The notes beneath the pieces were generated by a model. That model was not told the origin of the DNA and searched no databases. It saw nothing but the letters and a program-made list of their open reading frames with translations. Shown here piece after piece: positions 1-7,523 of a DNA stretch of 13,774 nt. This DNA is from Nitrospirota bacterium. GTDB taxonomy: Bacteria > Nitrospirota > RBG-16-64-22 > JACRHK01. The translations under genes and the position numbers were made by a program. Every line of letters starts with the position of its first letter. The first letter of the stretch is position 1. The stretch lies in NCBI GenBank assembly GCA_016217625.1, contig JACRHK010000190.1, forward strand, positions 1-13,774. Direction: 5' to 3'.

Positions 1-91
1 CTTCGCAGCGACCGGGATTGCCCCCACCCGCCGGGGCGAAACGCTTACCCTGGAAGAGTTCGGCCGTTTGAGCGACACCTTGGTGACCTAG
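1..91 (+). CDS. rsmA: C-terminal end of rRNA small-subunit dimethyltransferase (RsmA/KsgA-like), 5' truncated by window
   Basis: Frame 2 is open from the window edge to a TAG at 89-91 and encodes 29 residues ending in GIAPTRRGETLTLEEFGRLS followed by DTLVT. The pattern GIxPxxRxExLxxxEFxxL closes the C-terminal helical domain of the RsmA/KsgA family, which dimethylates two adjacent adenines in the 3' helix of 16S rRNA. Only this tail is visible, so the catalytic domain cannot be checked. The next gene starts about 160 bases downstream on the same strand. A different protein with a similar tail is possible, but the motif match is good for so short a piece. Confidence 0.7.
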   Translation, partial: FAATGIAPTRRGETLTLEEFGRLSDTLVT

Positions 92-2000: not shown

Positions 2001-2129
2001 TTAGTCGGCGCACTGCTTGCAAATTGGCTTCCATGGTGATGAGGTGTTGCGGCAAGCTGGGCAGAACTTCTTGCCGCACTGGCTGCAGGTTTGCTGCGCC
2101 TCATTCTTTGTACAGATTTGGCATTTCAT
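2001..2129 (-). CDS. 42-residue eight-cysteine zinc-ribbon microprotein
   Basis: This short frame begins MKCQICTKNEAQQTCSQCGK and ends PICKQCAD before TAA (2001-2003). Its eight cysteines form four CxxC knuckles (C3/C6, C15/C18, C23/C26, C37/C40) spaced 8, 4 and 10 residues apart. This is the layout of a compact two-zinc fold, either tandem ribbons or a cross-brace like B-box/RING fingers. A strong ribosome site (AAGGGGGG) precedes the ATG by six bases. The regular cysteine spacing over almost the entire length, plus that site, argues strongly for a real gene despite its size. It lies 37 bases beyond the attC-like site, same orientation as the cassette gene. Function is unknown; nucleic-acid or protein binding is the usual role of such knuckles. 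Confidence 0.7.
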   Translation of the reverse strand: MKCQICTKNEAQQTCSQCGKKFCPACRNTSSPWKPICKQCAD

Positions 2130-2166: not shown

Positions 2167-2325
2167 GCCTAACACCCTGCGTGAGCGGCGAGGGCACACG
2201 AGCTGGTCCGAAGTCCGACTCGCGCCAGTGTTCGGTGGCGCGCAAGAGGAAAGATTTGTCAAATCTAAAGAATTGACCCTCTAACTCGTACGCCGATACC
2301 GCGTCGGCTAAGGCGGTTGTTAAAC
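2167..2325 (-). repeat. Integron attC-like recombination site (159 bp)
   Basis: Read on the minus strand the site opens with R'' GTTTAAC (2319-2325, consensus RYYYAAC) and closes with R' GTTAGGC (2167-2173, consensus GTTRRRY). The two are complementary over all seven bases if G-T wobbles are allowed. The inner L boxes, GCCTTAGCCG (2305-2314) and the complement of GCGTGAGCGG (2179-2188), pair at 7 of 10. The start reads TAACAA then AGCCGACGC, closely like classical attC sites of resistance cassettes. The middle holds two further hairpins: CGCGCCA/TGGCGCG (2221-2242) and AGATTTG/CAAATCT (2252-2266). The site begins eight bases after the stop of the preceding gene, as in integron cassettes. At 159 bp it is at the long end for attC. 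No integrase gene is visible. Confidence 0.65.
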
Positions 2326-2333
2326 TCTGTTCA

Positions 2334-3341
2334 TCATCGGCCGATCTGGCGCGGCATGGGCGCAAGTAAGGCACTAGTTGTTTCTGTATGTTGCTTGCGC
2401 GTTTCCAGAAGACTGGCCCTGACTTCTTGGGTCTTCAGCAACTCGGGTTGAGCCAGCGGCTCAAGCGCAGCGATTACGTCGGCTACAGGGAAGTTGCGTC
2501 TATCCTCTAGGTACCGTGCGACTTGTCGGGCCGGAGGGCGCGGTAGACTTGCTTCTTTAGGGACCTTTGCATCCGCAGCGAGAAATTGCACAACGACCTC
2601 CCACGCTTGGTAAAAGACTTGCATAAAGCTCCGGTCATATGGGAGCGGGCACACAACAAGGTTTTTGAAATCATCTCGAACGATTGCGTCAGTTTCCCCC
2701 TCCTGTACCGGAACAATACCAAGACGCAGTCCGCGTGCACCTTCGAGGTGCGTCCTATTTATCTTCAACGTCGTTCCTATCCATCGATCCGTGTCTGAAT
2801 GACCAGTAAATAGATCGGCCTTCCAAAGTCCACTGATGCTGTGCGGCAGAATATCTCGGGCTGCTGGCTTTCGAAAGGCTGCGGCAACGGATTCGATGTG
2901 CTTCCTTAGCTTAACCGGTCTCCCCTTTGTGCCGTACATCAATATCGACTCTGCGGTAAGTAAGTTTTTTGCGGTGTCAATCAGATTAAGAGCGCCGGCT
3001 TTCTCCGCACCGAATAGAATCGACGAAACTGTGCCTCCGGGTTCTTTACATAAGAGCAGCGCATCATTTACTCGTTCCAAAATCATCGGGTTTTGTTTGT
3101 TAAGCGCGTCGTGCACTGCATACTCGAAACAGACCCCAATGTCGCCATCACCCGGTCGGCGGAGTCGAGAGAGCATAAACAGTTTGACTCCGTCATAGCC
3201 ACCCGCTTCTGTAACAACTTCACCCTTAAGCGCAGACAAGATTCCAGCTAATACCGGACGCACAATGGCCGTAACCGCCGATACTTCATCTGCTACTGCA
3301 GTTTCCTGAAACTCTAGGCGTAGCTGAACAACTTCATCCAC
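2334..3341 (-). CDS. Unrecognised 335-residue protein, possible PD-(D/E)xK-like nuclease, cassette-borne
   Basis: I cannot assign this protein to a family. Visible features: no signal peptide and no membrane helices, so it is probably cytosolic. A helix FEYAVHDALN contains E73, a strand carries ADLF with D176, and WIGTTLKIN ends with K193. The Glu-helix, Asp, then (x)xK order resembles a PD-(D/E)xK nuclease core, although the usual Glu/Gln before Lys is Thr; this is inference. I chose GTG 3341 because GGGAGG lies eight bases upstream, after a perfect -10. The in-frame TTG at 3443 is actually the -35 box. GC content is visibly lower than in argG. Its stop sits eight bases before an attC-like site, suggesting an integron cassette carrying its own promoter. 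Cassettes of this kind often carry defence or stress genes. Confidence 0.72.
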   Translation of the reverse strand: MDEVVQLRLEFQETAVADEVSAVTAIVRPVLAGILSALKGEVVTEAGGYDGVKLFMLSRLRRPGDGDIGVCFEYAVHDALNKQNPMILERVNDALLLCKEPGGTVSSILFGAEKAGALNLIDTAKNLLTAESILMYGTKGRPVKLRKHIESVAAAFRKPAARDILPHSISGLWKADLFTGHSDTDRWIGTTLKINRTHLEGARGLRLGIVPVQEGETDAIVRDDFKNLVVCPLPYDRSFMQVFYQAWEVVVQFLAADAKVPKEASLPRPPARQVARYLEDRRNFPVADVIAALEPLAQPELLKTQEVRASLLETRKQHTETTSALLAPMPRQIGR

Positions 3342-3395
3342 CGCCAGAACCTCCCTTGATATAACCGTCTGGGGCCTAATATTGCCTTTTATGCT

Positions 3396-3409
3396 TATCC
3401 TAACGGATA
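3396..3409. promoter_or_regulatory. Inverted repeat at the predicted transcript start of the cassette gene
   Basis: TATCC (3396-3400) and GGATA (3405-3409) are complementary and separated by TAAC. It overlaps the predicted +1 of the TTGACT/TATAAT promoter, so it could be a repressor site or a 5' hairpin. It is short, and chance is a fair alternative. Confidence 0.3.
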
Positions 3410-3414
3410 GGGGA

Positions 3415-3443
3415 ATTATATCCCTGGTGCGGTATGGAGTCAA
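3415..3443 (-). promoter_or_regulatory. Strong sigma-70 promoter of the cassette gene
   Basis: On the minus strand TTGACT (3438-3443) is followed after exactly 17 bases by a perfect TATAAT (3415-3420). Transcription would start near 3408, inside the inverted repeat TATCC-TAAC-GGATA (3396-3409), leaving about 67 bases of leader before the GTG start at 3341. Confidence 0.78.
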
Positions 3444-3514: not shown

Positions 3515-4801
3515 ATGCAGGCTCCGGTGAAGAAGATCGTTCTGGCCTACTCGGGCGGCCTGGACACCTCGGTGGCGATCCATTGGCTGAAGGCGACCTA
3601 CGGCTGCGAGGTCATCGCCTTCATCGCCGATCTGGGCCAGGGGGAGGCGCTCGCTCCCCTCAAGAAGAAGGCCCTCGCGACGGGCGCCTCGAAGGTTTAC
3701 ATCGAGGATCTCCGGGAGGAGTTCGTCCGGGACTTCGTCTTCCCCATGCTTAGGGCGAATGCCGTCTACGAGGGAGGCTACCTCCTGGGGACGTCCATCG
3801 CCCGGCCCCTCATCGCCAAGGCCCAGGTCGAGATCGCCCGCAAAGAGGGGGCGGACGCCGTGGCCCACGGCGCCACGGGGAAGGGGAACGACCAGGTCCG
3901 CTTCGAGCTGACGTATATGGCCCTGGACCCCAGCCTTAAAATCCTTGCCCCCTGGCGGGAGTGGGCGTTCAACTCCCGGCAGGCGTTGATCCGCTATGCC
4001 AAGCAGTACGGCATCCCCGTGACGGCGACGAAGGCGAAGCCGTACTCCATCGACCGGAACCTCTTCCACATCAGCTACGAAGGGGGCATCTTGGAAGACC
4101 CGTGGAAGGAGCCGCCCCAGGAGATGCACACGCTCGCCGTGCCGGTGGAGCGGGCGCCGGAGAAGCCGGAGTACGTCACGATCACCTATGAAGAAGGGAA
4201 CCCCGCCGCCCTCAACGGCAAGCGCCTCACGCCCGCCAGGCTCTTGGCCGAGGCCAACCGGATCGCCGGCCGCCACGGGATCGGCCGCGTGGATCTCGTG
4301 GAGAACCGCTACGTGGGGATGAAGTCGCGCGGGGTGTACGAGACGCCGGGCGGGACGATCCTTCACGCGGCCCACCGGGCCGTGGAGTCGCTGACGCTGG
4401 ACCGCGAGGTCCTGCATCTGCGGGACTCCCTCATCCCCCGCTATGCCGAGCTGATCTACTACGGCTACTGGTTCGCTCCCGAGCGGGAGACGCTCCAGGC
4501 GCTCTTCGACCGGACCCAGCGCCGAGTGACCGGGACGGCGCGCCTGAAGCTGTACAAGGGGACCTGCCTCGTGGTCGGACGGAAGTCGCCCTACTCCCTG
4601 TATCACCCCGAGATGGCGACGTTTGAAGAGGATGCGGTTTACGACCAGCGGGACGCGACCGGCTTCATCCGCCTGAACGCCCTGCGGATGCGGATTGAAG
4701 CGACGCTCAGAAAGTCCAAAGTCCAAAGTCCCTGCCTTGCCGGCAGGCAGGCAAAGTCCAAAGTCGGACAGGGGACCGTGGACATCGGACAACAGGCCTA
4801 A
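3515..4801 (+). CDS. argG: Argininosuccinate synthase
   Basis: The enzyme joins citrulline and aspartate using ATP to form argininosuccinate, the penultimate step of arginine synthesis, in the cytosol. The ATP-pyrophosphatase P-loop AYSGGLDTS is at residues 11-19, followed by [17 protein letters not shown] (85-101) and the substrate-binding [14 protein letters not shown] (118-131). At 428 residues it is longer than the usual 395-405. From about residue 398 the frame runs into a heptamer repeat (AAAGTCC) and reads 31 non-homologous residues before TAA. ATG 3515 has AAGG four bases upstream and the family-typical N-terminus. argH follows immediately, giving an argGH pair. Catalytic motifs are all intact. 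Confidence 0.97.
4711..4766 (+). repeat. AAAGTCC heptamer repeats with GC-rich palindrome, read through as argG C-terminus
   Basis: Three tandem AAAGTCC units (4711-4731) are followed by CTGCCTTGCCGGCAGGCAGG (4732-4751), an imperfect palindrome. Two more units follow, one with a single change (4753-4766). The array interrupts the normal end of argG and is translated. Confidence 0.85.
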
Positions 4802-6431: not shown

Positions 6432-7523
6432 ATGGATGTTTGCGTGTATACATCCTCTCGGGTGCTTTTGGCCTCAGTGTTGACTATTGCCTTCGTGCTC
6501 CTTCCCGCCTGCGGGAGGAAGGGGCCGCCGGTCGTCCCCAAGTCGATCGTCCCCGATGCCGTCAAGGAGCTGAAAGCCGATCAGCGGATGCAGAGCGTGA
6601 CCCTGAGCTGGCTCTTGCCTACGGAACATATCGACAAGAGCACGCCCGTCCATTTGGCCGGTTTCATCGTCCTCCGGGGGGAGCACGAACAGGGGGCGAG
6701 CAAAGGGTGCTGCGAACACCGAAAAATCGCCACGCTCGACCTGGAATGGCTCCGCGGGGCCAGGGTCGAGGGGAATCGCGTCGTGTTTCTCGATCGTGGC
6801 GAGGATCCGTCGCCGCCCGGCCTCCGCTACGGACGGACCTACGGCTACAAGGTGATTCCCATCGGGAAGCAGGAGGTCCTGGGGAAGGAGTCGCCCGAGG
6901 TGCGGATCACCCTGCAAGCGCCGCCGGCGCCTCCCACCGACGCGCAGGCCCTCGCAGGGGACGGAAAGGTCACGCTCACCTGGTCGCCCCCCGCGCAGAA
7001 CGTGGACGGGACGACCCCTCCGCGCCTGAAGGGATACAATCTCTATCGCAAAACCGAGGGAGGCGCGTACGGCTCCCCCGTGAACAAGGCCCTTCTGACG
7101 GCGCCCCGGTTTGTAGACATCGGATTGACAAACGGCCGGACCTATTACTACCATGTGAGAAGCGCCGGTGCGGAGCGTCCGGGATGGAACGAGGGGCCGG
7201 AAAGCGCCGAGGTCCGCGCCGTCCCGCGCGACACGACGCCTCCCGCCGCGCCTGAGGGGTTCACGGCGGCCGTGGCGGGGCGCGAGGTCCGGTTGAGCTG
7301 GAAGGAGAACCGGGAGGGGGACCTCCAGGGGTACCGGGTGTACCGCTCGACGGACCGGGAGCGGGGGTACGCGCAGGCGGCGGAGGTCCCGCTGCTTCAG
7401 ACGACGTTCACAGACCGCCCCGGCAAAGGGACCTATTATTATCGCGTGACGGCCGTCGACCGCGCCGCGCCGCCGAATGAAAGCGCGCCTTCGGAAGCGG
7501 CAAGGGTGAGAGTCGAGCATTGA
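6432..7523 (+). CDS. Lipoprotein with LptM-like N-terminus and three fibronectin type III repeats
   Basis: The 363-residue product has a signal peptide (hydrophobic [14 protein letters not shown]) ending in the lipobox LPAC with Cys27, followed by GRKGPPVVP. The CGxKGPxxxP stretch after the lipid-anchored Cys is the hallmark of LptM/YifL, the small lipoprotein that assists LptDE. Its gene commonly follows argH or precedes lysA in Proteobacteria, which fits this position. Unlike LptM it continues into three FN3-like units (about 41-163, 164-267 and 268-362) with VTLSW, VTLTW and VRLSW strands and YxVxxxG/A strands. It is probably outer-membrane anchored with a periplasmic adhesion or binding domain. 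I chose ATG 6432 because the signal peptide begins there. A longer frame from 6291 gives a Pro/Arg-rich, non-signal N-terminus. No substrate can be named. Confidence 0.82.

Follow-up and report, generated by a model that had tools for sequence, protein, structure and literature searches.

The window, by which we mean the whole 13,774-nucleotide stretch analysed, begins in the 3′ end of rsmA and runs through an insert into argG and beyond. At the right end of this insert lie a gene for a 335-aa protein and, directly behind it on the same strand, a site that resembles the attC recombination sites of integrons. The features on which the following argument rests are these:

2..91, plus strand: 3′ end of rsmA, flanking the insert on the left (over 19 residues it shares 68-74% identity with the end of the gene before argG in loci L119-L121)
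2001..2129, minus strand: 42-aa ORF, zinc-ribbon-like by its cysteine pattern only, with one 76%-identical database protein
2167..2325, minus strand: decayed attC-like recombination site, R″ to R′, 159 bp (motifs and stop-codon rank; weak covariance scores, no folding signal)
2167..2173, minus strand: R′ box GTTAGGC, read in the sequence
2319..2325, minus strand: R″ box GTTTAAC, read in the sequence
2167..2236, minus strand: internal 70-bp sub-site ACCGAAC...GTTAGGC with better L-box pairing (7.8 bits with covariance model R1, 8.0 bits with R2; profile 24.5)
2334..3341, minus strand: gene for the 335-aa protein, very probably a cassette gene, GTG start, PHROG 30306, predicted structure with a very weak resemblance to PD-(D/E)XK nucleases
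3374..3380, minus strand: candidate upstream cassette boundary ATTAGGC, one mismatch to GTTRRRY, proposed from sequence only
3398..3404, minus strand: alternative candidate upstream boundary GTTAGGA, likewise one mismatch to GTTRRRY and proposed in the same way
3415..3443, minus strand: predicted sigma-70-like promoter TTGACT-17-TATAAT reading into the cassette gene, 11/12 consensus matches
3515..4801, plus strand: argG, the right flank of the insert (Pfam argininosuccinate synthase)

The rsmA-argG junction is variable among relatives. In all three class relatives rsmA stands immediately before argG, and in one of the loci compared (L121) the gene directly upstream of argG matches Pfam RrnaAD at E=4.3e-60; in the window, 3.4 kb lie between the two. 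In all, 10 loci were examined with a 29-residue query; in the seven that belong to other classes of the phylum, the search detected no rsmA end next to argG. The GC content of the insert is 0.49-0.57, against 0.65-0.67 in the flanking genes. The nucleotide match to the class relatives starts at 3533, inside argG, and these relatives are too diverged to place the insertion point. An argG 94% identical to that of the window is present in the databases; the named argG matches are mostly from Nitrospirota, at 74-76% identity, with single matches in Beta- and Deltaproteobacteria. A second rsmA 3′ stretch, on another contig of the same genome (C147, locus L231, 4427-4492), shares 91% identity over 66 nt with the rsmA end of the window, so that the left flank of the window may be a second copy. 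The stretch represents either two copies of the gene or a second strain in the bin.

Besides the 335-aa gene and the site, the insert holds a nucleotidyltransferase gene, a PIN-Phd toxin-antitoxin-like pair, a repeat element and the 42-aa ORF. Positions 250-824 and 697-1392 carry, by Pfam assignment, the nucleotidyltransferase gene followed by an 82-aa ORF, and the overlapping PIN-Phd pair on the opposite strand. The 82-aa ORF itself has no Pfam match; we presume that it may be a cut HEPN partner of the nucleotidyltransferase. The repeat element (1441-1640) has terminal inverted repeats CCCCGTTAGAAAA and gives 10 matches in the genome, itself included, on seven contigs (C132, C79, C90, C126, C15, C86 and C116). 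The 42-aa ORF begins 37 bases past the R′ box, has a Shine-Dalgarno-like stretch, and is perhaps a second cassette without a recognisable attC.

The 335-aa protein matches PHROG 30306, which is annotated as of unknown function, at E=1e-100, and has no match in Pfam, NCBIfam or PADLOC. Its family is large: of 7998 scored candidates, 1831 are homologues at E≤0.001. Within the phylum the gene appears isolated: sought in 395 genomes at E≤1e-20, it was found in its own genome and in 0/394 others. Relatives of the protein also occur on 13 viral contigs and on four actinomycete plasmids, and among phage records a Pseudomonas phage homologue is 58% identical and three others 28-30%. In this phage, AUS531phi (L060, 6004-6993), a single small ORF separates the homologue from two DNA methyltransferase genes. 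A plasmid search with the DNA of the gene region matched one Micromonospora plasmid, at 67% over 16% of the query. A sequence-profile search of the PDB gave a single match, at E=0.93, and Pfam searches with 29 family members gave weak matches only, the best being DUF1677 at E 0.02 (3/29). A first predicted structure (29 sequences, pLDDT 71.9) yielded no usable structural match; a second (93 sequences, pLDDT 84.5) yielded weak matches only, by which the modelled protein would very weakly resemble PD-(D/E)XK enzymes.

The initial annotation proposed an attC on the grounds that GTTTAAC and GTTAGGC lie 159 bp apart, starting eight bases past a stop codon of the same orientation, and direct reading of the sequence bears out each of these points. 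From R″ to R′ the site measures 159 bp inclusive on the minus strand, the two boxes stand in the correct order, and 7/7 of their positions are pairable, two as G-T. The stop codon of the 2334-3341 ORF has its last base at 2334, and the site begins at 2325. One gene is therefore followed directly by an attC, taken here as a remnant, as in a gene cassette. The proposed likeness to classical attC sites stands for the first 25 bases: the start of the site, GTTTAACAACCGCCTTAGCCGACGC, is similar to the 5′ arms of attC sites beside homologues of the gene in L041 (AGCTAACAATTCATTCAAGCCGAC) and L043 (GCCTAACAATTCGTTCAAGCCGAC). The site as a whole is decayed and not classical. The L boxes, described as partly complementary, do show some pairing, but it is imperfect; the outer pair matches poorly and, by eye, the extra base expected in L″ is absent in the minus orientation. 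Searches of the own genome with the DNA of the site, and with its first 25 bases at up to 3 mismatches, returned the site itself only, and Rfam at gathering thresholds had no match in the whole window.

When folded, the full site is no better than its shuffles (z -1.0 on the minus strand, -1.2 on the plus strand). The lack of a cruciform with extrahelical bases had been named beforehand as evidence against an attC. The full site, with its poor L boxes, indeed lacks one, but the same does not hold for the 70-bp sub-site, the DNA fold of which reaches -12.7 kcal/mol with an ensemble pairing fraction of about 0.91 for the AAC/GTT core, where the full site has 0.30. Because the L boxes pair poorly, L″ has no extra base and the fold z is -1.0, we speak of an attC remnant and not of an intact attC: the site is attC-like by motif and place, and by structure it is not intact.

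Sequence and structure were scored jointly with two covariance models of our own, R1 from 20 sites and R2 from 27. With default filters R1 had no match in the window; with filters off, scores in the window were weak, at 6-10 bits. In the latter setting R1, run over 3600 bases, placed the 70-bp sub-site (2236-2167) first at 7.8 bits (E=1.2), and R2 placed the full site on the plus strand first at 9.7 bits (E=0.46). With E values of 0.46-1.2, the outcome comes close to the absence of any attC hit at a permissive score, which had likewise been held to speak against the site. A long, 112-bp, textbook-like site (L043) was also misread, at 12.7 bits and in the wrong register, even as a member of the R1 training set; the models are therefore insensitive to long sites and no fair test for them. 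In two whole-genome searches the window's site was not among the matches listed. In each of them 150 first-look candidates were scored, out of 1838 in one and 1688 in the other, so that these searches are no census of the genome.

Separate profiles for the 5′ and 3′ arms were built from 27 attC sites of other loci, drawn from integron-integrase contigs of relatives in the phylum and from contigs holding homologues of the gene. These sites were chosen with our own scanner and models, and the cut-off of 28 was fixed after the scores had been seen; one site (L110:10619) was excluded from the profiles used for the ranking, the genome scan and the homologue scoring. The site at 2167-2325 totals 28.2 on the minus strand and 23.2 on the plus strand, where its 3′ arm scores 13.5. 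Among the regions that follow the stops of ORFs of at least 100 aa, ranked by arm profile without leave-one-out and leaving out duplicate or short loci (L001-L005, L009, L010, L062-L107 and L129-L134), it holds rank 25 of 3416 stop codons. The 24 stops above it comprise 19 profile sites and five others: one in the own genome (C7), two on attC-rich contigs (L029 and L110) and two behind homologues (L052 and L055). All 24 lie either in the own genome or on contigs that carry an integron integrase or one of the gene's homologues. A scan independent of stop codons, over 371 kb of the genome (67 of 289 contigs, one partial), placed the window's site second, after one clear attC on C7. Reversal of the 371-kb DNA gave one match of at least 28 against three in the real DNA, two of which are both strands of the C7 attC, and five block shuffles gave 3, 6, 1, 0 and 2 matches of at least 24 against five real ones. 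By these controls the sequence taken alone is suggestive only, and it is the place behind the gene that makes the case.

This place could be compared across 63 homologue loci, consisting of 49 genome contigs, 12 of the 13 viral contigs, one phage and one plasmid. Each locus was left out of the profile with which it was scored, the fragment locus L150 was dropped, and five loci have fewer than 120 nt after the gene. A score of at least 28 was found behind the homologue in nine of the 63 loci (L043, L041, L022, L056, L033, L024, L029, L052 and L055), against 2 of 3000 random regions of the same loci. Seven of these nine sites belong to the profile set (and were scored with the locus left out); L052 and L055 do not. 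The next scores are 19.8 (L040) and 17.4 (L016), the rest being at most 10. A site of 26.0 lies ahead of the gene in L040, and L055, with a weak 3′ arm (5.2), may be a half site. The 14 loci from viral contigs, phage and plasmid all stay below 28. Searching both strands at E≤1 and irrespective of stop codons, R1 detected sites directly behind the homologue in L029, L041, L022, L024, L033 and L016, on the gene's strand only; five of these six are R1 training sites. Members of the family are thus found in other cassettes, in nine of 63 loci by profile and in six by covariance model. The fetched flanks of the homologue loci contained no integron integrase, the sole tblastn match at E≤1e-8 (L012) being 25% identical. 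With 54 of the 63 loci below 28, the family is not tied to cassettes; it is often, by no means always, cassette-borne in Proteobacteria and, judging from record titles, probably also in Gemmatimonadota, Acidobacteriota and Campylobacterota.

The genome itself, a bin 78% complete in 289 contigs, contains both an integrase fragment and another attC, the two things whose absence had been listed as counting against an integron origin. The C-terminal half of an integron integrase lies at the edge of contig C84, where the contig end cuts it off. It matches TIGR02249 at E=5e-47, has IntI4 as its best PDB match (E=1.6e-30), and is 52% identical to the integrase of a class relative (G003) that has an attC on the same contig. 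We take the fragment to carry the integron-specific patch. This integrase family was found at E≤1e-30 in 12 of 61 genomes searched, the own genome included. Matches to TIGR02249 at E≤0.001 in the own genome are confined to C84, C25 and C78, with none on the window's contig; those on C25 and C78 (41-75 bits) are distant tyrosine recombinases that we did not take as integron integrases.

A clear attC lies at C7:6743-6814, scoring 25.5 bits (E=0.045) with R1 and 29.3 bits (E=0.0097) with R2 in the whole genome, and its R″ box overlaps the stop of a cupin-domain gene. On this contig (L135; positions noted 6743-6814 and 7166-7226) the attC is followed by an RRM gene and a serine-acetyltransferase-like gene, both by Pfam. 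A 61-bp stretch with the promoter region and start of that C7 gene is repeated at 85% upstream of the cupin gene, as if the C7 cassette stood behind a copied promoter. Two further attC-like sites were seen: one on C101 (L136, 6524-6577) behind a DUF2442 gene, with a good 5′ arm and a poor 3′ arm (R1 19.3 bits, E=1.2), and one near the contig end on C113 (L137, 5343-5409; R1 16.4 bits, E=5.5; profile 26.3). Both are absent from the matches listed for R2. Weak whole-genome R1 matches also fell on C70 and C83 (E 7.7 and 9.0), and the R2 matches on C235 and C41 (E 3.9 and 7.1) were set aside at below 20 in the profile scan. A literature search on integron attC sites, its scope being Methylomirabilota, found none for that phylum.

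At the upstream end of the gene, no exact GTTRRRY occurs within 110 bases, and either of the two one-mismatch candidates may be the cassette boundary. The predicted promoter (3443-3415) is upstream of both (3398-3404 and 3374-3380) and is therefore more likely resident than part of the cassette, which runs against the original idea of a cassette that carries its own promoter. The promoter-like site probably predates the cassette or arrived separately; the 1661-base region contains two such sites, against a shuffle mean of 1.3. First-position cassettes downstream of a putative promoter are reported in passages of PMC12690207.

We consider it very probable that the gene at 2334-3341, together with the site at 2167-2325, forms one integron cassette stranded between rsmA and argG, its attC partly decayed. 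The view that the gene is now, or once was, a cassette with no visible integron around it gains from the attC-like sites behind homologues in other phyla, the lack of a match in the 394 other genomes searched from the phylum, the rsmA-argG junction without insert in three class relatives, and the integrase fragment and other attC in the genome. That two short motifs fell by chance near a stop codon, with no integron tie, would fit the poor covariance scores, the missing folding signal and the one match of equal strength in the reversed 371-kb control. Such a coincidence is nevertheless improbable given the site's position immediately after a gene whose homologues have attC-like sites behind them, the rank of 25 among 3416 stops, and the integron traces elsewhere in the genome. 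Also improbable is a plus-orientation attC that was owned by something once to its left, the 335-aa gene then being in reverse. R2 does favour the full site on the plus strand, at 9.7 bits, and the plus-strand 3′ arm reaches 13.5, but R1 found only the gene's strand at the six sites directly behind homologues, and the minus profile total exceeds the plus total (28.2 vs 23.2). The profile scoring of homologue loci covered the gene's strand only and is silent on orientation.

The sub-site leads to another account, which is a variant of the stranded cassette and not its opposite. The 159 bp would be two attC remnants joined by a deletion: from 2325 to about 2300 the left arm of the attC that belongs to the gene, and at 2236-2167 a nearly whole 70-bp attC from a lost second cassette. 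On this view the sub-site may be a second attC to which the first one's left arm has become fused. The sub-site has the better L boxes (GCG-CGAG(T)CGGAC vs CCGCTCACGC), which show complementarity with an extra base in L″ in part, the firmly paired R-box cores described above, and the best minus-strand covariance match in both models. Its R″ box ACCGAAC, on the other hand, has one mismatch, its profile score of 24.5 is below the 28.2 of the full site, and no cassette body is left between the two parts. We regard this fusion as possible but doubtful. A 47-bp reading of the left part (2279-2325), at 6.0-6.7 bits on the minus strand and with a 3′ arm of 1.7, was dropped.

For the stranded cassette, the most likely course of events is that a cassette in folded single-stranded form, alone or in a short array, was placed at a non-classical chromosomal site by an integron integrase of the own genome or a close ancestor. 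The promoter just upstream of the cassette would then express the gene. With L boxes that have ceased to match, the attC probably recombines poorly today, and the cassette is likely immobile and frozen in place. Stranded cassettes are a route by which integron genes enter ordinary chromosome sites. The locus offers a worn example from a lineage about which little is known, and draws attention to a protein family that is widespread and partly carried in cassettes. One could go further and suppose that the family is an undescribed DNA-cutting or anti-mobile-element protein, spreading across phyla as a self-sufficient integron cassette and also in phages and plasmids, and that the integrase of this uncultured lineage has dispersed several such cassettes to places next to core genes, to be expressed from local promoters. 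Taken as a whole, this wider picture is rather unlikely.

Compared with an ordinary integron gene cassette, the locus has the same RYYYAAC...GTTRRRY arrangement within 8 bases of a gene, and homologues of that gene occur in such cassettes. It differs in that its L boxes pair poorly, no folding signal is present, and there is no exact upstream GTTRRRY. Passages of PMC12690207 describe as a SALIN a single attC lacking an integron-integrase. The window likewise has one attC-like site and no integrase on its 13.8-kb contig, whereas its genome has an integrase fragment on another contig, and the site might fail a standard attC threshold. Insertion of cassettes at attG sites (Loot et al. 2024, as cited in passages of PMC12901181, PMC12690207 and PMC11023631) is a route described for other genomes. 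The present locus shares with it a cassette that stands alone between core genes, with a promoter-like site upstream, and differs in that its insertion point is not placed by the empty site of a near relative. For the protein, the closest known counterpart is PHROG 30306, with the match given above. The stranding of a cassette is thus a known kind of event, and the gene that was stranded belongs to a widespread, uncharacterised family.
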